Counted from the stretch's first letter, positions 52,607 through 64,000 are shown. The stretch: DNA of 64,000 bases from Calditrichota bacterium (GCA_008501735.1 QQUF01000008.1:124001-188000), one strand, 5' to 3'. A program made the numbers and translations. Notes: generated by a model not told the origin, from the letters alone.

Positions 52607-52641
52607 TTAGAACCCGAAAAATCAAATTCTCACTAAAAAAA

Positions 52642-52715
52642 TCGGGACGACTGGATTTGAACCAGCGACCACTTGACCCCCAGTCAAGTACGCTACCGAA
52701 CTGCGAGTCGTTTAA
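52642..52715 (-). tRNA. tRNA-Pro(GGG) copy with a broken 5' acceptor strand, probable attachment-site fragment
   Basis: On the minus strand the D-loop region, anticodon arm (loop CTGGGGG, anticodon GGG), variable loop, T arm (TTCAAAT) and 3' acceptor strand (CGTCCCG plus A) are recognisable. The 5' acceptor should read CGGGACG but reads TTAAACG: positions 1-4 cannot pair. Base 10 and positions 8-9 also deviate. A tyrosine recombinase gene begins 38 bases away on the 5' side. This is what remains of a tRNA-gene 3' part after site-specific integration, so it is probably not a working tRNA. Confidence 0.7.
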
Positions 52716-52752: not shown

Positions 52753-53928
52753 TTATTGCTTTTCTTTTTGAAAAATGGTGCTAAACTTTCCTAATCTTGT
52801 TGCTGAGTCTTCTTGTTTGGTAGCATTGTAAACTTGTTCAACCATTCTAATTGAAACTCCTAAGTATGTAGCAATATCATTTGAATTAGCACCTTGTTCC
52901 ATTTGAGTAGTTATGAAAAGCCTTCTTAGGTTGTGAACTAAAATATGAGCCTTAAGTCCAGCTTCCAAACAATATTTTTTGATGTTTTTACCTAATCTAC
53001 TTTTATCGGCTTTATGACCATTTTTAAGGCTAAAGGCATAATTAGATACATTTCTTGCTTTCCACTCTCTAAGGTGTGCTATTGAGCCATTAATCAATTG
53101 ATAAGGCTTCTTAATCTTATCTGTCTTACCACTTCTTAAAACAACTTCGTTTTCCCAGTCAACATCTGTTTCAAGATTAATTCCTGTAATTTCGCTTATT
53201 CTCCAACCTGTCTTTAATGCAAATTGCAAGAACTGAATTAGACGTTCATTTGGATTTTTAGACTCCATATAGTCAATCAAAGAAAAGAAGTCATTTATGG
53301 TGAAATTTAACTTTCTCTTGATAACTTTTTTCTTTGGTAATGGGTTATTCTTTAATGCTGTTAAATTGGACTTTATAAGCCATTGGAAGTAAACTCTACA
53401 TTGGTTGAAATAAGAACTAACAGAACCATTACTTAATTTCTTAGTGTCTTTAAGAAAGAAAGCAAACTCATTCCCAACCTCTTCATTAAAGTCATCAACA
53501 AAAGATAAATTTTTGTATTCAACAAATTCTTTTAGTTTTTTTAATGAATTTTTGTAATTCTCAAAGGTTGCATTTGAAATGGAATCAGTTTTAAATGCTT
53601 CATATTTTTTAGCAATAAATTTGTCTATACTTTCCAATAATTTTTCAGGCTCTATTTTTTCCTCTTGAGTTACTGCTTTTGATACATCAGGGTTAACAAG
53701 TATTCTCTGTATTAACTCTTTATTTGATACTCCTTCTGCTTTTCCATTGTCAATTAATTTCTCAAGATGTAATCTTTGAATGGAATCATCAAGAATGGAG
53801 TTAATTCTTCTTTCAAGTTTAAGAGCCTCTCTTTTGTTACTTCCAAAACTGAACATAATTTGTTTCTTGTTTAATGACAGTTTTAACCGCCATTTCTTGG
53901 TTCTGTTGTCTTGTGATACCTTAGGCAT
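52753..53928 (-). CDS. Tyrosine recombinase/integrase
   Basis: A 391-residue phage-integrase-type protein with an N-terminal SAM-like DNA-binding half and a C-terminal catalytic half. Catalytic residues: R in LKTGWRISEIT, K in SGKTDKIKK, HxxR in LVHNLRRLF and the final tyrosine in VEQVYNAT. The usual second histidine before the tyrosine (LGHxS) is Val here, a known variation. It sits next to the tRNA-Pro fragment and probably integrated the island there. Confidence 0.88.
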   Translation of the reverse strand: MPKVSQDNRTKKWRLKLSLNKKQIMFSFGSNKREALKLERRINSILDDSIQRLHLEKLIDNGKAEGVSNKELIQRILVNPDVSKAVTQEEKIEPEKLLESIDKFIAKKYEAFKTDSISNATFENYKNSLKKLKEFVEYKNLSFVDDFNEEVGNEFAFFLKDTKKLSNGSVSSYFNQCRVYFQWLIKSNLTALKNNPLPKKKVIKRKLNFTINDFFSLIDYMESKNPNERLIQFLQFALKTGWRISEITGINLETDVDWENEVVLRSGKTDKIKKPYQLINGSIAHLREWKARNVSNYAFSLKNGHKADKSRLGKNIKKYCLEAGLKAHILVHNLRRLFITTQMEQGANSNDIATYLGVSIRMVEQVYNATKQEDSATRLGKFSTIFQKEKQ

Positions 53929-54219: not shown

Positions 54220-54635
54220 TTGAAAACTCTAATTGTGTAAATGATAATACACTAATGTAAACTACATTTAGAGATTTAGCAACTTATATTTTTACATATT
54301 GTGTTTTATTTTTACCGTTGGAATTGTTGGAAGATTCAAACAAAACTCCAACTTTTCCAACTTTTGAACAGTTAATAGAATTTTTTGGGCATTTTTTTCT
54401 TAGGCAATTTATGTCAGAAAAAACCGAGAAAGAAGGGGTGGGGTTTGTTGTATATATGAACGAAATATTGATACTATATTTTTCTAAGTGTAGGGAAGAG
54501 TCATTGCTAATTGATTTGAAGCTCTTTACCTCTTGATTTAATTTAAAATTATCTTGTTTCTTGATATTCTACTAACTTAATTTGAGGTAATCGTGTTGTG
54601 TATTGTTAGACTTTCACACAAATAATAGGGAAGTT
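54220..54635. other. 416-base region before the island nuclease operon
   Basis: Contains promoters and no convincing gene. An open frame at 54318-54536 (TTG start, low-complexity, no domain) is probably chance. I see no repeat or RNA structure. Confidence 0.5.
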
Positions 54636-56237
54636 ATGAATAAGGGACAAAATGCAATAAATGAATTTGTAAAAGTTTTCAAAAAGGAATATTCAATTGA
54701 AAACGATTTACTTATTAATGTTTCTCAATTTAAAACAATTGACCCTGAAATTGGTTTTAAAGAAAAGCAAAATAAAGAAAGCAAAATAAATTCAATTGCA
54801 TACAAATATGAATTTATTTTTGGGGATTTACCATTTGGTTCGAACCGAGTTGATTCCGAATTAATGCCTAACGGAAGAATAAAACGAAATTGGAATTCAA
54901 TTTTTGAAAGCCTAAAACTTCTAAAAGATAATGGATTTGGTTTCTTTGCTGTAGAGCCTTCAATTCTTTATGAGAAATTAGGCGTTATTTTTTTAAAAGC
55001 TCTTGAAGCAAATAAATTTTTTCTAAATATCGTATTGGATATTCCTCCGAAAATATATTATCCACACACTTCATTCAAACCTATTTTAATTGGATTTTCA
55101 AAAGTCCAATATGACAATTTATTTATTTCAAATATAGAAGAAGAAAATGCAAGAATTGTCGTTGAGAATTTTAAGAGTCAAAAAGGAAATAATGTCCAAA
55201 ACGGTATTTGGATTGAAAAGGATAGTTTTCAATCGTTTTCAAAATATAATTTCCTAAATCAAATTGAAAATTTGAAAACTCAATACAAGGAGTATAAAGA
55301 ATATCAGCTTTCAAAAATTTCTTTTGCAATCAATATGACAAAATCGAGATTTAAGGATGAACCAAATTCAATATATATTCAAAAAATTGGAAATCGAGAG
55401 GTTGTATCTTCGTTATCGAACCTCAAGTTAAAACCTCACAATCATTTTCAAGTCGTTTTAAATTCAGAAATTGTCTTAGCAGAATATCTTGCCTTATTTT
55501 ATAAATCGGAATTAGGTCATTTAATTTTAAATTCCTTATTCACAGGTAGTTTTATTCCAAGTATTACCAAAGGTAGTATCAAAGATAGTTTTGTTGCTAT
55601 TCCAAATATTGAAGAGCAAAAATTGCTTATTCATACTAATAACAAGTTGAACGAATTGCAAAAAACTATTAATGATTTACAACTTGAATTAAGTCTAAAC
55701 CCTAAGAATGCACCTTTAATATTAGAAAAGTTCGAAACCTACCAAAAGGCATTAAAATCACTTACAGTTGAAGATGAAATTTTAAGCTTAATTAGAAAAG
55801 GAGAAGGTAAAACAATTGAGTTTAAACAAACATTTTCAAAGAACATTCATACAAATAGAAAAGACCCTGAAATTGAAAAATCATCATTAAAGAATATTGT
55901 TGGTTTCCTTAATTCAGATGGCGGAACACTATTGATTGGAGTTGCCGACAATAGTAAAGTTACTGGGATTGAAGATGACTTTTTCCAATCAAATGATAAA
56001 TATTTGCTTCATTTTAAAAACGCTGTTAATTCAAAAATTGGTTCTGAATTTTATCCTTTAATAGATTATGATATTTTCAGTGTTTTGGGTAAAAAGATAC
56101 TAAGAGTAGATTGCAAACCTTCTGAGAAAGCTTGTTTTTTCAGTAGAACTGAGTTTTATGTACGGACAAATCCTGCAACTGATAGATTAGAAGGAAACGA
56201 GTTCCTTGAGTATGTAAGAAGAAGGTTTGGAAATTAA
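54636..56237 (+). CDS. Fusion of a truncated N6-adenine methyltransferase, an HsdS-like target-recognition part and an AlbA_2 (Schlafen-like) domain
   Basis: 533 residues from the ATG at 54636 (AGGGAAG just before it). Residues about 55-180 contain the catalytic motif IV as DLPFG (64-68) and the following FFAVEPSILYE segment of type I/N6 methyltransferases, but no SAM motif I. Residues about 190-380 look like an HsdS target-recognition region, including FYKSELGHLILN, GSFIPSITKG and EEQKLLIHTNNKL. From about 385 an AlbA_2 domain follows (GEGKTIEFKQTF, GFLNSDGGTLLIGV). It heads the operon with two nucleases. The activity is unclear; it may read DNA methylation or trigger a response. Confidence 0.75.
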   Translation: MNKGQNAINEFVKVFKKEYSIENDLLINVSQFKTIDPEIGFKEKQNKESKINSIAYKYEFIFGDLPFGSNRVDSELMPNGRIKRNWNSIFESLKLLKDNGFGFFAVEPSILYEKLGVIFLKALEANKFFLNIVLDIPPKIYYPHTSFKPILIGFSKVQYDNLFISNIEEENARIVVENFKSQKGNNVQNGIWIEKDSFQSFSKYNFLNQIENLKTQYKEYKEYQLSKISFAINMTKSRFKDEPNSIYIQKIGNREVVSSLSNLKLKPHNHFQVVLNSEIVLAEYLALFYKSELGHLILNSLFTGSFIPSITKGSIKDSFVAIPNIEEQKLLIHTNNKLNELQKTINDLQLELSLNPKNAPLILEKFETYQKALKSLTVEDEILSLIRKGEGKTIEFKQTFSKNIHTNRKDPEIEKSSLKNIVGFLNSDGGTLLIGVADNSKVTGIEDDFFQSNDKYLLHFKNAVNSKIGSEFYPLIDYDIFSVLGKKILRVDCKPSEKACFFSRTEFYVRTNPATDRLEGNEFLEYVRRRFGN

Positions 56238-56246
56238 AAAGAAAGT

Positions 56247-56735
56247 ATGGAAAAAACTTTTGTAGCGATTGATTTTGAAACAGCAACAAGACATCATATT
56301 TGTTCAGTTGGTATTGTAACCTTAGAAAATGGTGAAATAATTGATGAATTTCATACATTGATTAAACCAATTAACAATGAATACAATTGGCGTAATATTC
56401 AAGTTCACGGAATTACAGAAAATGATACTGTAAACGCTCCCCTTTTTAGTGAAATTTATCACGAAATAAAAAAACGAATTTATGGTAAAACTCTTGTCGC
56501 TCACAATGAAAGTTTCGACAGGAATGTTTTAATAAAAACTATGAGAGATTATGGTATTGACTATTCCGACTTAAACATTTCTAATAGATGGGAATGCACT
56601 TTAAGAATTTATCGTGCAAAAGGCTATAAGCCTGCTAATCTGAACGCTTGTTGCAAAATTCACGGCATTGAGCTTGAACATCATCAAGCCTTATCTGACG
56701 CTCGTGCTTGTGCAAAGTTGTTTCTAATTGCTTAA
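56247..56735 (+). CDS. DEDDh 3'-5' exonuclease, DnaQ-like
   Basis: A 162-residue protein. ExoI is VAIDFETA (D9, E11), ExoII includes AHNESFDRNVL (D91) and ExoIII is HHQALSDARA (H146, D151), so all five catalytic residues are in place. It would remove nucleotides from DNA or RNA 3' ends. It begins nine bases after the fusion gene and ends 25 bases before the Mrr-like gene. A free-standing exonuclease in a restriction island is notable. Confidence 0.9.
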   Translation: MEKTFVAIDFETATRHHICSVGIVTLENGEIIDEFHTLIKPINNEYNWRNIQVHGITENDTVNAPLFSEIYHEIKKRIYGKTLVAHNESFDRNVLIKTMRDYGIDYSDLNISNRWECTLRIYRAKGYKPANLNACCKIHGIELEHHQALSDARACAKLFLIA

Positions 56736-56760
56736 AATTTTAATTTAAAAGGTTATTCAA

Positions 56761-57825
56761 ATGAATTATTGGCTACACAGAATTTCACATCACGCAGAAG
56801 TATCTTATCCACTACTTTTTGACAATAATGTTCTTACAATTGGATTTTCTGATTTTGCAAATCAAGGATTTTTAGATAGTCTATTACAGGTAGAAGAATC
56901 AAAAAGATGGAGTGTCTTTGAACAAATGATTAAAGAGGAAGAGAAATGGAGAAACCTTCCACGAACAAGATATAATTTGTGGAGGTTTATAGAAGGGTTC
57001 AAAAAAGGAGATAAAGTTGTAGTTCCAAGTCAAGGTGCTTTTTCAGTTTTTGAGTTAGTTTCTGAAACACCTCAACCAATTTCTAATCTTAACACAAAGG
57101 ATTTGAAAGATTGGAACGGTAACTCCTTAAAAATGCAAGATGGTCATATCTCTGATGGTACTGATAAAATTGATTTAGGATTCTATTGGGGAGTAAAACC
57201 TATTGCAAAGAAAAAAATCTCACGAAAGGATTTTGCAGACTCGGCACTAACTTCAAGATTGAAGTATAGAACTACTAACACTGAAATTAGTGATATAAAA
57301 GATAGTGTTGAAAAAGCAATAAGTGCATTTAAAGAAAATAAACCAATAAATTTGTATTCTGAAATTTTAGATAAAATTACTAAAAAAGTTTTAGAATCAT
57401 TAACGTCAAAATTAAACCCTGATAAATTTGAAAAACTTGTGAAATTTTACTTTGAAAGAAATGGTGCTACGGAAACTTTAATTCCTGCAAAAAATGCAAA
57501 GGGGAAAGAAGGAGATGCTGACGTAATCGCAATTTTTGAACCAATAAGGACAATAATTTATGCACAGGTAAAATTTCATAAAACTGATTCTGAAACTAAT
57601 GAATGGGCAGTAGAACAAATAAATGATTTCAGGAATAACAAAGAAACTATGGATGACGATTACACAAAAATTGCTTGGGTTGTTTCTTCTGCGAAAAGTT
57701 TTACAGAGAAAAGTGTTAAATTAGCACAAGATAAAAACGTGCATTTGATAGATGGAAATAGATTTGCTGAAATGATTATTGAAGCAGGTATATTTGATTT
57801 AAATAAAGTTATGCAGAATAATTAA
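56761..57825 (+). CDS. Mrr-like restriction endonuclease with an N-terminal PUA/EVE-like part
   Basis: A 354-residue protein. The C-terminal half (about 218-345) is an Mrr_cat PD-(D/E)xK nuclease: FEKLVKFYFERNGA, GDADVIAI (D252/D254) and YAQVKFHK (Q269, K271). Residues about 20-150 (IGFSDFA, WRFIEGFKKGDKVVVPSQG) resemble a PUA/EVE-like base-reading domain. Mrr-type enzymes often cut modified DNA. It is 40 bases before hsdM. Confidence 0.82.
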   Translation: MNYWLHRISHHAEVSYPLLFDNNVLTIGFSDFANQGFLDSLLQVEESKRWSVFEQMIKEEEKWRNLPRTRYNLWRFIEGFKKGDKVVVPSQGAFSVFELVSETPQPISNLNTKDLKDWNGNSLKMQDGHISDGTDKIDLGFYWGVKPIAKKKISRKDFADSALTSRLKYRTTNTEISDIKDSVEKAISAFKENKPINLYSEILDKITKKVLESLTSKLNPDKFEKLVKFYFERNGATETLIPAKNAKGKEGDADVIAIFEPIRTIIYAQVKFHKTDSETNEWAVEQINDFRNNKETMDDDYTKIAWVVSSAKSFTEKSVKLAQDKNVHLIDGNRFAEMIIEAGIFDLNKVMQNN

Positions 57826-57864: not shown

Positions 57865-60269
57865 ATGGCAATAAAAAAATCGGAATTATATAGCAGCCTT
57901 TGGGAAAGTTGTAATGAACTAAGAGGTGGAATGGATGCGAGTCAGTACAAAGATTACGTATTGGTAATGCTATTTATTAAATACATCAGTGATAAATGGG
58001 CTGGACAACCATTTGCACCAATTACGATTCCAGAAGGGGCAAGTTTTGCCGATATGGTAAAACTTAAAAAAAGTATAAATATTGGCGATGACATCAATAA
58101 AAAAATCTTGAACCCTTTAAAAGAGGCTAACAATTTATCGGATTTTCCTGACTTTAATGATGTTACCAAATTAGGTAGCGGAAAAGAAATGGTTGACCGA
58201 CTGACAAATTTAATTACCACCTTTGAAAAGGCTGAATTAGATTTTAGTAGTAATAGAGCAGAAGGTGATGACATTCTTGGAGATGCTTACGAGTATTTAA
58301 TGAGACATTTTGCTGCTGAAAGTGGGAAAAGTAAAGGGCAATTTTATACTCCTGCCGAAGTTAGTAGAACAATGGCATCAATTATTGGTATTAATCAAAT
58401 TACTAAAGATTCTGATGTTACTGTTTATGACCCAACTTGTGGTTCGGGTTCATTACTTCTTAGAGTTGGAGATGAGGCAAAGAGTAAAGAGTTACTTTAT
58501 ACGGACAAGAGAAGGAAGCTACAACGTCAGGTTTGGCTCGTATGAATATGATTTTGCACAACAATCCAACTGCTGTAATAGAACAGGGAAATACACTTGC
58601 AAACCCAAAGTTTGAAAAAAATGGAAACCTCAAGACATTTGATTTTGTGATTGCAAATCCACCGTTTAGTGATAAAAGATGGAGTAATGGGCTAACATTA
58701 CCTAAAGATGAACCTTACAAACGGTTTGATGGTTATGGAATTCCACCTACAAAGAATGGTGATTATGCCTATTTACTTCACATTGTTCGTTCATTGAAAC
58801 GGCACGGAAAAGGTGCTATCATTTTACCTCACGGAGTTTTGTTTAGAGGAAATGCCGAAGCTATTATTCGTACCGAATTAATTAAATCAGGTTATGTAAA
58901 AGGAATTATTGGCTTACCACCAAACCTTTTTTATGGAACTGGTATTCCTGCTGCAATTATCTTGGTTGACAAAGAAAATGCTCTTATTCGTAAAGAGATT
59001 TTTATGATTGATGCAGGTAAAGGATTTGTTAAAGATGGAAACAAAAATCGGTTGCGTGAACAGGATATTCGTAAAATTTCTGATGTTTTTAATGGACGGA
59101 TAGAAATAGCAGGTTTTAGCCGAATGGTAAAAGTTGAAGAAATTGAGAAAAATGAATATAATCTTAATATTCCAAGATACATTGAAAGTCAAGAAACAGA
59201 AGATTTACAAGACATTGAAGCTCACTTAAAAGGTGGTATTCCAATTGTTGATATTGATGCTCTTTCTAATTATTGGCAGATTTTCCCAACTTTGAGAAAG
59301 TCCATTTTTGAGAAATTGAACGATAAATACTCTAAGATTACAATTGACAATTCAGAAATTAGAGATACAATATTTTCACATCCTGAGTTTGTTTCATTTA
59401 TCGAAGTAATGGACACATTATTTAGTGAGTGGAAAACAAAAAACATTCTACTGCTTAAAGACTTAGGTATTGGCAATAAACCAAAAGAAATCATTTTAGG
59501 ACTTGCAGAAGATTTGATTGAAACCTACACCAATAAGCCTCTTATTGACAAATACGATGTTTACCAACATTTAATGAGTTATTGGGTTGAAACTATGCAA
59601 GATGATTGTTACATCATTTCTGATGATGGATGGAAAGCAGAGACTAAACGAATATTAGTAGAAAACAAGCAAAAGAAGATGGTTGATAAAGGTTGGACTT
59701 GCGACCTTTTGCCAAAAGAATTGGTTATTAATCGCTTTTTCGTTTCTGAGAAACAAACAATAATTGATTTAGAAACGGAGAAAGAAACTATTGCAAGCCA
59801 ACTTACCGAATTAGAAGAAGAACACAGTGCCGAAGACGGCTATTTTACGGAACTTGAAAAAGTGAATAAAGCCGAAATAAGCAAACGTCTCAAAGGGCTA
59901 AAAGGTGAAACAGGTGTTGCAGAAGAAATTGCTGTTTTAAAATCATATTTTGATTTACTAACAAAGCAAACAGCCACTAACAAAAAGATAAAACAAGCCG
60001 AAAAAGAATTAGATGATAAACTCTATGGGAAATATCCATTACTAAGTGAAGATGAAGTAAAACAGTTGGTTGTAGAAGATAAGTGGATTCAGAACATTGA
60101 AGGAGCAATAAAAGGTGAAGTTGACCACATTAGTCAAAAACTTACGAACCGAGTTAAAGAATTAGCAGAGCGTTACGAAACTCCTTTACCTCTAATAAAT
60201 GAAGAAGTCAGTAATTTGGAAAGTAAAGTAAATGCTCACCTTAAAAATATGGGGTTTGTATGGAATTAA
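57865..60269 (+). pseudogene. hsdM: Type I restriction-modification DNA methyltransferase subunit, frameshifted
   Basis: Would encode about 801 residues. Frame one (57865-58545) holds the N-terminal domain and SAM motif I DPTCGSGSLL. The homology then continues in another frame (in the 58533-60269 frame) as YGQEKEATTSGLARMNM, NPPFSDKRW (motif IV) and a long C-terminal helical part. The break sits at the AAA at 58486-58488: adding one A gives an unbroken DEAKSKRVTLYGQEK. So one base is missing in the genome or in the sequence. The stop overlaps the hsdS start. It methylates adenine in the target together with HsdS. Confidence 0.88.
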
Positions 60270-61429
60270 AAACTGGTTATAAGAATACAGTGATAGGTGT
60301 GATTCCTGAAGATTGGGAAATTGAAATAATTCGTAATTTTTCAAATCCTGTGAGAGGTGGTTCACCTAGACCTGCGGGTTCTCCTTTATATTTTAACGGT
60401 AATTATATTCCTTGGTTAACGGTTGCTTCATTAACAAATATTCCAAATTCTCAATTATTTGTGTATAAAACGGATACTTTTCTTACAAAAGCTGGTTCTT
60501 ATTTCAGTAGAACTTTAGAAAAGAATACATTAATTATTGCCAATAGTGGTGCAACATTAGGTGTAGCAAAAATATTAGGAATTAAATGTTGTGCCAATGA
60601 TGGTATTGCTGCATTACTAAACATTGATAAAAAGATTAATGAAAGATATTTAGTTTATTTCATTAATACATTAACTCAATCTTTACGTGAACGAATTGCT
60701 ACAGGGAATGGACAACCAAACTTGAATACAGATTTAATAGGGAATATCCAAATTCCCCTTCCTCCATTACCTGAACAAACGGCAATTGCTACTGTGCTTT
60801 CTGATACTGACAGTCTGATACAAGCACTTGAAAAAAAGATTGCTAAAAAACAGCTCATTAAAAAAGGTGCAATGCAGAAATTGCTCACTCCAAAAGATGA
60901 TTGGGAAGTGAAGACTTTAGGGGATTTTTTGATTTATGAACAACCAACTAAATACATAGTAAAAAATACAAAATACAACGATAATTTTGATATTCCAGTT
61001 TTAACCGCAGGCAAAACATTTATTCTTGGATATTCAAATGAAAAAAAGGGTATTTTTAATAATTATCCTGTAATTATTTTTGATGATTTTACTACCGCTT
61101 CCAAATATGTAAAGTTTCCATTTAAAGTAAAATCATCAGCAATGAAAATTTTAAAGCCAAAAAATGAGAATGTAAATTTGAGATTTATTTTTGAAATAAT
61201 GCAACAAATTAATTTTCCTTTAGGAGACCATAAAAGACATTGGATTGGAGAATTTCAGCCTTTAGAAATTAAAGTTCCGAAATCAAAAGAGGAAAAAAAT
61301 CGTATTTCTCAAATTCTTTCCGATATGGATAACGAAATCGAAACCTTGCAAAATAAACTGTCAAAATACAAGCAACTAAAACAGGGCTTAATGCAAAATT
61401 TATTAACAGGTAAAATTAGGTTAGTCTAA
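60260..61429 (+). CDS. hsdS: Type I restriction-modification specificity subunit
   Basis: A 389-residue protein with two target-recognition domains and two helical spacers. TRD1 covers about 1-165, ending with the PLPPLPEQTAIATVL helix start; TRD2 covers about 210-350, ending with KVPKSKEEKNRISQIL. The conserved spacer ends are QLIKKGAMQKLL and QLKQGLMQNLLTGKIRL. It defines the DNA site recognised by the complex. It overlaps hsdM by ten bases and hsdR by one. The recognised sequence cannot be read from the protein. Confidence 0.92.
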   Translation: MELKTGYKNTVIGVIPEDWEIEIIRNFSNPVRGGSPRPAGSPLYFNGNYIPWLTVASLTNIPNSQLFVYKTDTFLTKAGSYFSRTLEKNTLIIANSGATLGVAKILGIKCCANDGIAALLNIDKKINERYLVYFINTLTQSLRERIATGNGQPNLNTDLIGNIQIPLPPLPEQTAIATVLSDTDSLIQALEKKIAKKQLIKKGAMQKLLTPKDDWEVKTLGDFLIYEQPTKYIVKNTKYNDNFDIPVLTAGKTFILGYSNEKKGIFNNYPVIIFDDFTTASKYVKFPFKVKSSAMKILKPKNENVNLRFIFEIMQQINFPLGDHKRHWIGEFQPLEIKVPKSKEEKNRISQILSDMDNEIETLQNKLSKYKQLKQGLMQNLLTGKIRLV

Positions 61430-64000
61430 TGGATAATGTAGGTCAAATAGAACGAATTACACAAGACCGTGTAGTAAAACTATTTCAAGATGAATTAGGA
61501 TACAACTTTCTCGGTAATTGGGAAGCAAGAGAAGACAATAGAAATATTGAAGTTGATTTACTTACTAATTTTCTAAACCGAAAAGGTTACTCAGAATCCC
61601 AAATTAGCAAAGCTATTTTTGAACTACAAAATACAGCAAACAATTTTGGCGATAATCTATACACTACTAACAAAAAAGTTTATCAAAAACTTCGTTACGG
61701 AATCCAAGTAAAAGTCGAAGCAGGGGAAAATTTTGAGACTGTAAATCTAATTGACTGGGAAAATTTTGGTAACAATGATTTTGCAATTGCTGAGGAAGTA
61801 ACAATAAAAGGAGAAAAAACCAAACGACCTGATATTGTTATTTACATAAATGGAATTGCACTTGGAGTAATTGAGCTAAAACGCTCCAAAGTATCATTAA
61901 ATGATGGAATCCGACAAAACATAACAAACCAACAAGACCGATTTATAAAGCCCTTTTTTGCAACTGTTCAGATTACATTTGCAGGAACTGATACAGAAGG
62001 TTTACGTTACGGCACAATAGGAACAGAGGAAAAATTTTATCTCAAATGGAAAGAAGATGTTGAAGATATTAGTCGAAACCAATTGGACAAATACCTCTTA
62101 AAAATGTGTAACAAGGAGAGATTTCTTGAAATCATTTTCGACTTTATTGTTTTCGATGGTGGTAGGAAGAAACTACCAAGAGTTCATCAGTATTTTGGAG
62201 TCAAAGAAGCACAAAAATACGTAAGAAGAAAAGAAAGCGGAATCATTTGGCACACACAAGGAAGTGGGAAAAGTATTGTAATGGTAATTCTTGCCAAGTG
62301 GATTTTAGAAAATAACCCAAACGCAAGAGTTGTCGTTCTAACTGACCGAGATGAATTAGATAAACAGATAGAAGGAGTCTTTAAAGACGCTGGTGAAGAA
62401 ATTTACCGTACCAAAAGCGGTAAAGATTTAATGAGCCAATTAGGACAAGCAGCTCCTCGACTTTTGTGTTCGTTAATCCATAAATTTGGTAATAGAGATG
62501 TTAGTGATTTTAATCAGTTTATTAAAGATTTAAAGAGCCAACCACAACAAGCTGTTGGAGAGCTTTTTATTTTTGTTGATGAGTGCCACCGAACTCAAAG
62601 TGGAAAATTAAACCGAGCAATGAAAGCAATTTTACCTGATGCAGTTTTTATTGGTTTTACAGGAACACCACTTCTCAAGAAAGACAAAGAAACCAGTCTT
62701 GAAGTTTTCGGAAGCTACATACACACTTACAAATTTAACGAAGGCGTTGATGATGGAGTAATCTTGGATTTGGTCTATGAAGCAAGAGATATTGACCAAA
62801 AACTAACTTCACAAAAAAGGATAGACGAGTGGTTTGAAGCCAAAACAAAAGGCTTGAATGAGTATAAAAAGAATGCTCTCAAACGTCAATGGGGAACGAT
62901 GCAAAAGGTTTTGAGTAGTCGCTCCCGAATGAGTAAAGTCGTTTCTGATATAATTTTTGATTTTAGCACAAAGCCAATTTTGGATTCTGATTCAGGAAAT
63001 GCCATTTTGGTGGCAAATTCAATTTATGAAGCTTGTAAATATTACGAGTTATTTCAACAAACACCTTTGAAAGGTAAATCAGCAATTGTTACCTCTTACA
63101 ATCCTCAAACAGGTGATATTTCTACCGAAGATACTGGAGCAAATACCGAGACAGATAAAGAGTTTATGTATAATTTATACGAAAATATCTTGAAGGATGT
63201 AAAACAAGAGGCAAATAAATCTAAAACAGAAAGCTATGAAGATTGGGCTAAAAATAAATTCATTAACGAGCCAGTAAATATGAAATTACTAATTGTAGTT
63301 TCAAAATTACTAACAGGCTTTGATGCTCCAAGTTGTTCCTATTTATACATTGACAAAAGTATGCAAGACCACGGGCTTTTTCAAGCGATTTGCAGGGTAA
63401 ACCGATTAGATGGTGAGGATAAACAATTCGGTTACATTGTTGATTACAAAGACTTGTTTAAAAAAGTAGAAACTGCGATTTCTGTTTACACTTCCGATTT
63501 AGATTACGATGAATTTGAAGCAGAAGACATTGATGTTATGCTAAAAGACCGTTTGAAAGCAGGGAAAGAAAGACTTGATAATGCTTTGGAAGAAATTGCA
63601 TTACTTTGTGAAAAAGTTGAAACACCAAAAGATACAATGGCTTATATCAGATTCTTTTGTGGTAATCCTGAAATAGAATCAGAATTAAAAGCAAAAGAAA
63701 CACATCGAACTTCACTTTACAAAAAAGCAGTTTCATTAATTCGGGCTTATGCAAATATTGCAGATGAAATGGAATCAGCAGGTTATACTTTGACCGAAAT
63801 AGAAAACATCAAAGAAGAGGTAAATCATTACCTTAATGTGCGTGAAGAGATTAGAAATGCCAGTGGAGAAACATTAGATTTAAAAACGTATGAAGCCGAT
63901 ATGCGTCATTTGATTGATACATATATTGAAGCAGACGAACCCGAAAAAATTTCACCTTTCGATGATATGTCGCTCTTAGATATAATTGTTAAAACTGGAA
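61429..64000 (+). CDS. hsdR: Type I restriction enzyme R subunit, 857 residues present (continues past the right edge)
   Basis: The N-terminal nuclease domain has PDIVIYINGIALGVIELKRS (PD-(D/E)xK, about residues 134-153). The translocase has Walker A TQGSGKS at about 274, DECH at about 386 and GFTGTPL shortly after, then the helicase-C part with ICRVNRL. It translocates and cuts DNA lacking the HsdMS methylation. It starts on the last base of hsdS. The C-terminal part is outside the window. Confidence 0.93.
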   Translation, partial: MDNVGQIERITQDRVVKLFQDELGYNFLGNWEAREDNRNIEVDLLTNFLNRKGYSESQISKAIFELQNTANNFGDNLYTTNKKVYQKLRYGIQVKVEAGENFETVNLIDWENFGNNDFAIAEEVTIKGEKTKRPDIVIYINGIALGVIELKRSKVSLNDGIRQNITNQQDRFIKPFFATVQITFAGTDTEGLRYGTIGTEEKFYLKWKEDVEDISRNQLDKYLLKMCNKERFLEIIFDFIVFDGGRKKLPRVHQYFGVKEAQKYVRRKESGIIWHTQGSGKSIVMVILAKWILENNPNARVVVLTDRDELDKQIEGVFKDAGEEIYRTKSGKDLMSQLGQAAPRLLCSLIHKFGNRDVSDFNQFIKDLKSQPQQAVGELFIFVDECHRTQSGKLNRAMKAILPDAVFIGFTGTPLLKKDKETSLEVFGSYIHTYKFNEGVDDGVILDLVYEARDIDQKLTSQKRIDEWFEAKTKGLNEYKKNALKRQWGTMQKVLSSRSRMSKVVSDIIFDFSTKPILDSDSGNAILVANSIYEACKYYELFQQTPLKGKSAIVTSYNPQTGDISTEDTGANTETDKEFMYNLYENILKDVKQEANKSKTESYEDWAKNKFINEPVNMKLLIVVSKLLTGFDAPSCSYLYIDKSMQDHGLFQAICRVNRLDGEDKQFGYIVDYKDLFKKVETAISVYTSDLDYDEFEAEDIDVMLKDRLKAGKERLDNALEEIALLCEKVETPKDTMAYIRFFCGNPEIESELKAKETHRTSLYKKAVSLIRAYANIADEMESAGYTLTEIENIKEEVNHYLNVREEIRNASGETLDLKTYEADMRHLIDTYIEADEPEKISPFDDMSLLDIIVKTG

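Follow-up and report, generated by a model that had tools for sequence, protein, structure and literature searches.

We analyzed a window of 64,000 nucleotides from a Calditrichota bacterium (GCA_008501735.1 QQUF01000008.1:124001-188000), and positions are counted from its first letter. An integrative element of 16.9 kb lies between two exact copies of a 69-bp repeat. The left, attL-like copy (52637-52705) falls within tRNA-Pro(GGG), placed by ARAGORN at 52642-52710, and the second copy (G000:C32:193497-193565, window-equivalent 69497-69565) lies outside the window, where ARAGORN also calls a tRNA-Pro (L011 7501-7576). A tyrosine integrase gene (52753-53928, minus strand; Pfam Phage_integrase, 2.8e-16) is found beside the left repeat, and the G+C content of the element part in the window is 0.315 versus 0.354 for the rest. 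A whole restriction island is carried aboard the element as one run of plus-strand genes. The run opens with a gene for a 533-aa fusion protein (54636-56237), followed by genes for a 162-aa DEDDh 3'-5' exonuclease of the DnaQ type (56247-56735; Pfam RNase_T 4e-21, PolC exonuclease 2p1j 3.7e-15) and for an Mrr_cat endonuclease (56761-57825; Pfam Mrr_cat 5e-12) whose N-terminal part is uncharacterised and which shows a partial likeness to the PADLOC candidate PDC-S02 (6.2e-12). Both nuclease genes had been named in an earlier note on this DNA and were confirmed by Pfam; the gaps from the fusion through DEDDh and Mrr to hsdM are 9, 25 and 39 nt. The run then goes on, with no gaps after hsdM, through hsdM (57865-60269), hsdS (60260-61429; Pfam Methylase_S 7.7e-28), hsdR (61429-64000, continuing to window-equivalent 64482; Pfam HSDR_N, SWI2_SNF2 and T1R_D3) and a YgjP-like metallopeptidase gene. 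A one-base break interrupts the reading frame of hsdM, and the two pieces match MTase_I separately (8e-110 and 6.7e-237); the break lies near 58490-58500, shortly past motif I, at a place with no long homopolymer. No terminator-like site was found between 53900 and 58200, which hints that the run may be read as one transcript.

The fusion gene starts at an ATG that its homologues support; a frame with a TTG start begins at 54603. On the same strand, the product shows an HsdM-like methyltransferase fold reduced to its C-terminal half (aa 55-165, 54798-55130), an HsdS-like target recognition half (aa 216-324, 55281-55607), a helical region comparable to the HsdS conserved region and covered in part by the HsdS match (aa 325-380, 55608-55775) and a Schlafen AlbA_2 domain (aa 390-518, 55803-56189; Pfam SLFN_AlbA_2, E 3.5e-18). 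The last scores 66.7 bits against a curated Pfam cut-off of 25.3, and the relatives at loci L004 and L005 likewise exceed this cut-off. Each third was also compared alone. The N-terminal third gave a weak profile match in the PDB, to HsdM of EcoR124 (E 0.19), and aligned by hhalign with HsdM at a probability of 77% (E 2e-5), with controls at 0.2% for an HsdS profile and 0.1% for an AlbA_2 profile. In this alignment the DLPFG of the fusion (aa 64-68, 54825-54839; in full GDLPFG) sits over the NPPF motif, that is, at the motif IV position. The middle third, as a six-member profile, matched three solved HsdS structures with E values of 4e-9 to 6e-9 (5ybb_D, 4e-9; EcoKI S, 2y7c, 6e-9), and HsdS-like sequence spans about aa 189-352 (PADLOC Specificity_I, E 2.7e-7). 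Both the target recognition domain (TRD) and the helical region of HsdS are thus present, as one half only and under the Pfam Methylase_S cut-off. The AlbA_2 third matched the profiles of SLFN11 (E 1.7e-6) and SLFN13 (E 1.7e-5). Its acidic triad, E390 (55803-55805), E395 (55818-55820) and D438 (55947-55949), aligns with E218, E223 and D261 of the 5yd0 chain, which are the published SLFN13 residues E205, E210 and D248 at a constant offset of 13. A single AlbA_2 stretch was found by Pfam instead of the two-lobe core of mammalian Schlafens, and no PrrC-like ABC ATPase or anticodon nuclease domain was called in the fusion. The fusion of methyltransferase, TRD and AlbA_2 that the earlier note had proposed, with DLPFG at the motif IV position and no SAM motif I, is therefore real: its domain search returned AlbA_2 by Pfam, HsdS by PADLOC and profile, and N6_Mtase by profile comparison with no Pfam call in the window protein. 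Named PADLOC systems were weighed as an identity for the locus and rejected, as was MADS, for which the MAD5 match reached 16.1 bits against a cut-off of 400. AlphaFold models were set aside at a mean pLDDT of 33 for the fusion (two-sequence alignment) and 41 for the Mrr protein (single sequence).

Copies of the fusion also turn up in distant bacteria. Seven full-length ones were collected: six of a short form, comprising that of the window and five from the GTDB phylum of Winogradskyella, and one longer version from Pseudoalteromonas. A genome scan placed the closest relative in Winogradskyella immobilis (68% identity), and further copies were found in genome G016 of the same family as Winogradskyella (54-55%) and in G696 (49%), G558 (48%) and G518 (36%) of the same phylum. 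The version on a Pseudoalteromonas nigrifaciens plasmid (L005) has 783 aa, and its N-terminus can be recognised as N6_Mtase (E 3.7e-55); its motif I is degenerate (DPSFCIGK) and the NPPF motif is missing. Only through this longer relative, or by profile comparison, does the methylase part become visible. The fusion is rare: of the genomes sampled from the relatives' groups, about 1% carry it. None was found in eight other genomes of the window's own phylum, and neither the viral contigs, scanned with the fusion, its alignment and the Mrr protein, nor the phage records gave relatives.

Based on these copies, the fusion is probably no longer able to methylate DNA. The SAM motif I is absent from all six short members, and the motif IV position reads DLPF, DFPF, AYSF, DLPF, DLPF and DIPL, with AYSF in G016 and DIPL in G518; the fusion thus lacks the pairing of a SAM motif I with a motif IV of the form N/D/S-P-P-Y/F that marks N6-adenine methyltransferases. 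No methylase coding was found upstream of the window gene in three frames, and the five short relatives start alike. This rules out a truncated, split or mis-sequenced methylase, the objection that the earlier note had raised against its own reading. With AlbA_2 as its C-terminal part, the protein cannot be a beta-class methylase with the motif order IV-TRD-I either, and this identity was rejected. Conservation rises along the protein: from 0.39 in the methylase part, mean pairwise identity among the short members increases to 0.52 in the TRD, 0.54 in the helical region and 0.60 in AlbA_2. The triad E390/E395/D438 is invariant in all seven fusions, unlike motif IV. AlbA_2 domains in general commonly carry this triad, as do further AlbA_2 proteins both of the same genomes and of others; it is therefore no specific mark of an RNase, and its value as proof of RNase activity is weakened. 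A TRD that serves strain-specific recognition is expected to be the most divergent part of its protein. Since the TRD of the fusion is not, and is better conserved than the methylase part, its ligand appears to be constant, suggesting either a partner protein or a site that does not change. Between the window and Winogradskyella copies, dN is 0.21 and dS is 2.0, a value near saturation, giving a dN/dS of about 0.1 that indicates purifying selection on the fusion.

Restriction genes were present within about 10 kb of every fusion with long enough flanks (6/6), the Winogradskyella contig being too short to be counted. They belong to type I systems at three loci, to a type II system at one and to looser sets of nucleases and methylases at two. 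The comparison set for these surroundings consists of only two loci with an AlbA_2 domain fused to a cyclic-nucleotide-binding domain, both among ordinary genes, against seven fusions. A nuclease-type gene within or adjoining a type I hsd operon, the setting typical of PrrC, is seen in the window, in G016 and on the Pseudoalteromonas plasmid. The fusion of G016 lies 20 nt ahead of a type I methylase with HSDR_N, which is followed by hsdS. The plasmid order is an Mrr_cat-like gene just below the Pfam cut-off, the fusion, a gap of 46 nt, hsdM, hsdS, a further AlbA_2 protein that includes an ATPase part, and hsdR. This type I locus (L005 4983-20290), with its two different AlbA_2 proteins, has a CBASS-like operon alongside (SAVED/Mov34/ThiF/nucleotidyltransferase). 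In G696 the order is integrase, fusion, type II restriction endonuclease (PADLOC 1.2e-72), type II methylase (4.8e-133) and PLD helicase. A methylase of the same family (46% identity) lies 7 kb from the fusion in G558, where no restriction gene is directly adjacent, and in G518 an Mrr_cat gene (E 9e-31) and a weak HNH gene are located upstream of the fusion. The type II methylase family shared by G696 (L020 11960-13729) and G558 (L021 10350-12212) was not found in four other fusion genomes.

The earlier note had taken the fusion, the DEDDh gene and the Mrr gene as one cassette and had looked to its recurrence without hsdMSR as a mark of a separate system. This part did not stand. Only the window, among the seven full-length fusions, has a DEDDh gene beside the fusion, and no second trio was found among them, the Winogradskyella contig being too short for a full test. 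Mrr_cat proteins occur near two other fusions, adjacent on the Pseudoalteromonas plasmid and 1.6 kb away in G518 (L022), but they align poorly with the window Mrr (pairwise E 0.05 and 0.03) and are not clear orthologues. The one relative of the window Mrr in 396 genomes, with 46% identity, is solitary in G137. With the DEDDh gene confined to the window and the only Mrr relative solitary, the trio is not a conserved cassette in the collections searched. As a single gene, the fusion moves among settings of type I, of type II and of a looser kind.

These results bear on a reading in line with the earlier note, a DNA-targeting, type IV-like restriction in which the HsdS-like half would read a site or a methylation state and AlbA_2, Mrr and DEDDh would cut and degrade DNA. 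The tight co-directional spacing of the three genes and the Mrr_cat genes near two further fusions speak for it; yet the trio does not recur, the Mrr proteins are not shared, and the AlbA_2 relative with a demonstrated activity, SLFN13, is an RNase (PMC5862951). We consider this reading unlikely. A role as DNA-binding regulator, with AlbA_2 binding nucleic acid without cutting and the fusion controlling the restriction genes or the element in their expression or timing, would suit a domain often termed DNA-binding (e.g. PMC6299218) and a gene that stands first in its run in the window, G016 and G696. However, the nuclease triad never varies among the fusions, the plasmid copy takes second place in its run and G558 offers no adjacent operon to control, which makes such a role improbable. 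The retained M- and S-like parts and the type I neighbourhood at three loci might instead mean that the M-S remnant joins HsdM, HsdS and HsdR as an accessory subunit, adding a nuclease or altering specificity with no guarding function, but a fusion that also sits beside a type II system (G696) and occurs without adjacent hsd genes (G558, G518) renders this improbable as well. A functionless, decayed methylase-specificity gene, as half of the methylase domain is lost and the neighbouring hsdM is frameshifted in the window genome, is very hard to reconcile with six genomes that keep the short form intact at 36-68% identity and with a dN/dS of about 0.1, where dS is near saturation.

We tentatively favour, at somewhat less than even confidence, a restriction-linked bacterial Schlafen in which a dead recognition module would act as sensor and AlbA_2 as nuclease output, the fusion most likely providing a suicide or back-up defence beside the restriction system. 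The suggestion of the earlier note that the protein recognizes and acts rather than methylates, in a setting of restriction genes, is supported. The N-terminal two thirds would derive from a joined methylase-specificity (M-S) protein that lost its SAM-binding half, and this remnant may retain the M and S surfaces that bind DNA and each other. The AlbA_2 output would be a nuclease that depends on metal ions, most probably an RNase that, like SLFN13, attacks tRNA or other RNA. At rest, the recognition part might restrain the nuclease while docked either on DNA or on the restriction complex encoded alongside; a phage that blocks or evades restriction would then free the nuclease and stop translation, in the manner of PrrC beside EcoprrI. 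Because its hsdM frame is broken, the guarded system may be dead in the window genome, or the base call is wrong. The linked DEDDh and Mrr genes would be local co-passengers or helpers and not obligatory. More speculatively, a homodimer formed through the HsdS-like helical region could pair two AlbA_2 lobes and mimic the two-lobe SLFN13 core.

AlbA_2 domains of the same type are also C-terminal behind cyclic-nucleotide-binding domains and GmrSD N-termini, and a C-terminal module on such varied N-termini behaves as an output domain. The cyclic-nucleotide-binding fusions (L023 6617-7507, L033 5745-6716) have surroundings without restriction genes; the GmrSD-type restriction protein was found in G366 (L009 1498-3387). 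In G455 (L024 4182-7334) a DUF499 ATPase carries AlbA_2 N-terminally and is flanked by very large genes, in what looks like a BREX-related locus. A different arrangement was found in G312 (L013 7739-11450), where a 924-aa HARE-HTH/N6_Mtase/TRD/HATPase protein, with a motif I (DPVCGTGG) and with GDLPIE at the motif IV position, adjoins a receiver-like AlbA_2 protein in which Pfam called no receiver; hsdMS and McrBC flank the pair. This kinase version occurred once in 400 Flavobacteriaceae searched, and plasmids gave none. The pair looks like the same sensor and output, split and joined by a phosphorelay. It is possible, though doubtful, that both belong to a family of DNA-reading Schlafens, in which restriction-derived methylase-TRD modules (in the window family unable to methylate) would directly switch a Schlafen nuclease, in one chain as in the window family or via a histidine-kinase/receiver relay as in G312, so that a DNA sequence, a methylation state or a blocked restriction complex would lead to RNA cleavage and growth arrest.

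If the favoured reading is true, one protein joins the DNA recognition of restriction subunits to Schlafen RNase suicide, Schlafen nucleases gain a sensor of a new class and type I loci gain a guard other than PrrC. The reading makes testable whether a methylase that is past methylating can serve as a switch, and the family is small. Both parts of the fusion are of known kinds. No paper on it was found in a literature search without preprints, and a 2025 preprint on bacterial Schlafens (doi 10.1101/2025.07.24.666596, cited in PMC12839542) may list the architecture.

Among known systems, the fusion shares AlbA_2 with SLFN13, SLFN11 and bacterial Schlafens, and its acidic triad is in register with the SLFN13 RNase site (PMC5862951), whereas a single lobe stands in place of the two-lobe core. 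Schlafen-linked systems take part in anti-phage defence and Schlafen RNases are found in BREX loci (PMC12839542); those proteins have a kinase-wHTH arrangement (PMC12839542), in contrast to the methylase/HsdS-derived module of the window fusion. The likeness to Mrr and type IV nucleases such as PDC-S02 is limited to the Mrr_cat domain of the third gene, as Mrr is here a separate gene and no constant partner of the fusion. PrrC, the guardian of the type I system EcoprrI (PMC12707154), is likewise a nuclease-type gene in a type I operon with a proposed watch over the restriction enzyme, but the fusion has no ABC ATPase or anticodon-nuclease domain, its recognition part is itself M/S-derived and its guarding is putative. 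Finally, the fusion resembles type I M, S and joined M-S proteins in the part of the N6_Mtase fold that runs from motif IV onward to its end, in one TRD and in the helical region; it differs from them in the loss of motif I, the unconserved motif IV, the single TRD and the added AlbA_2 domain.
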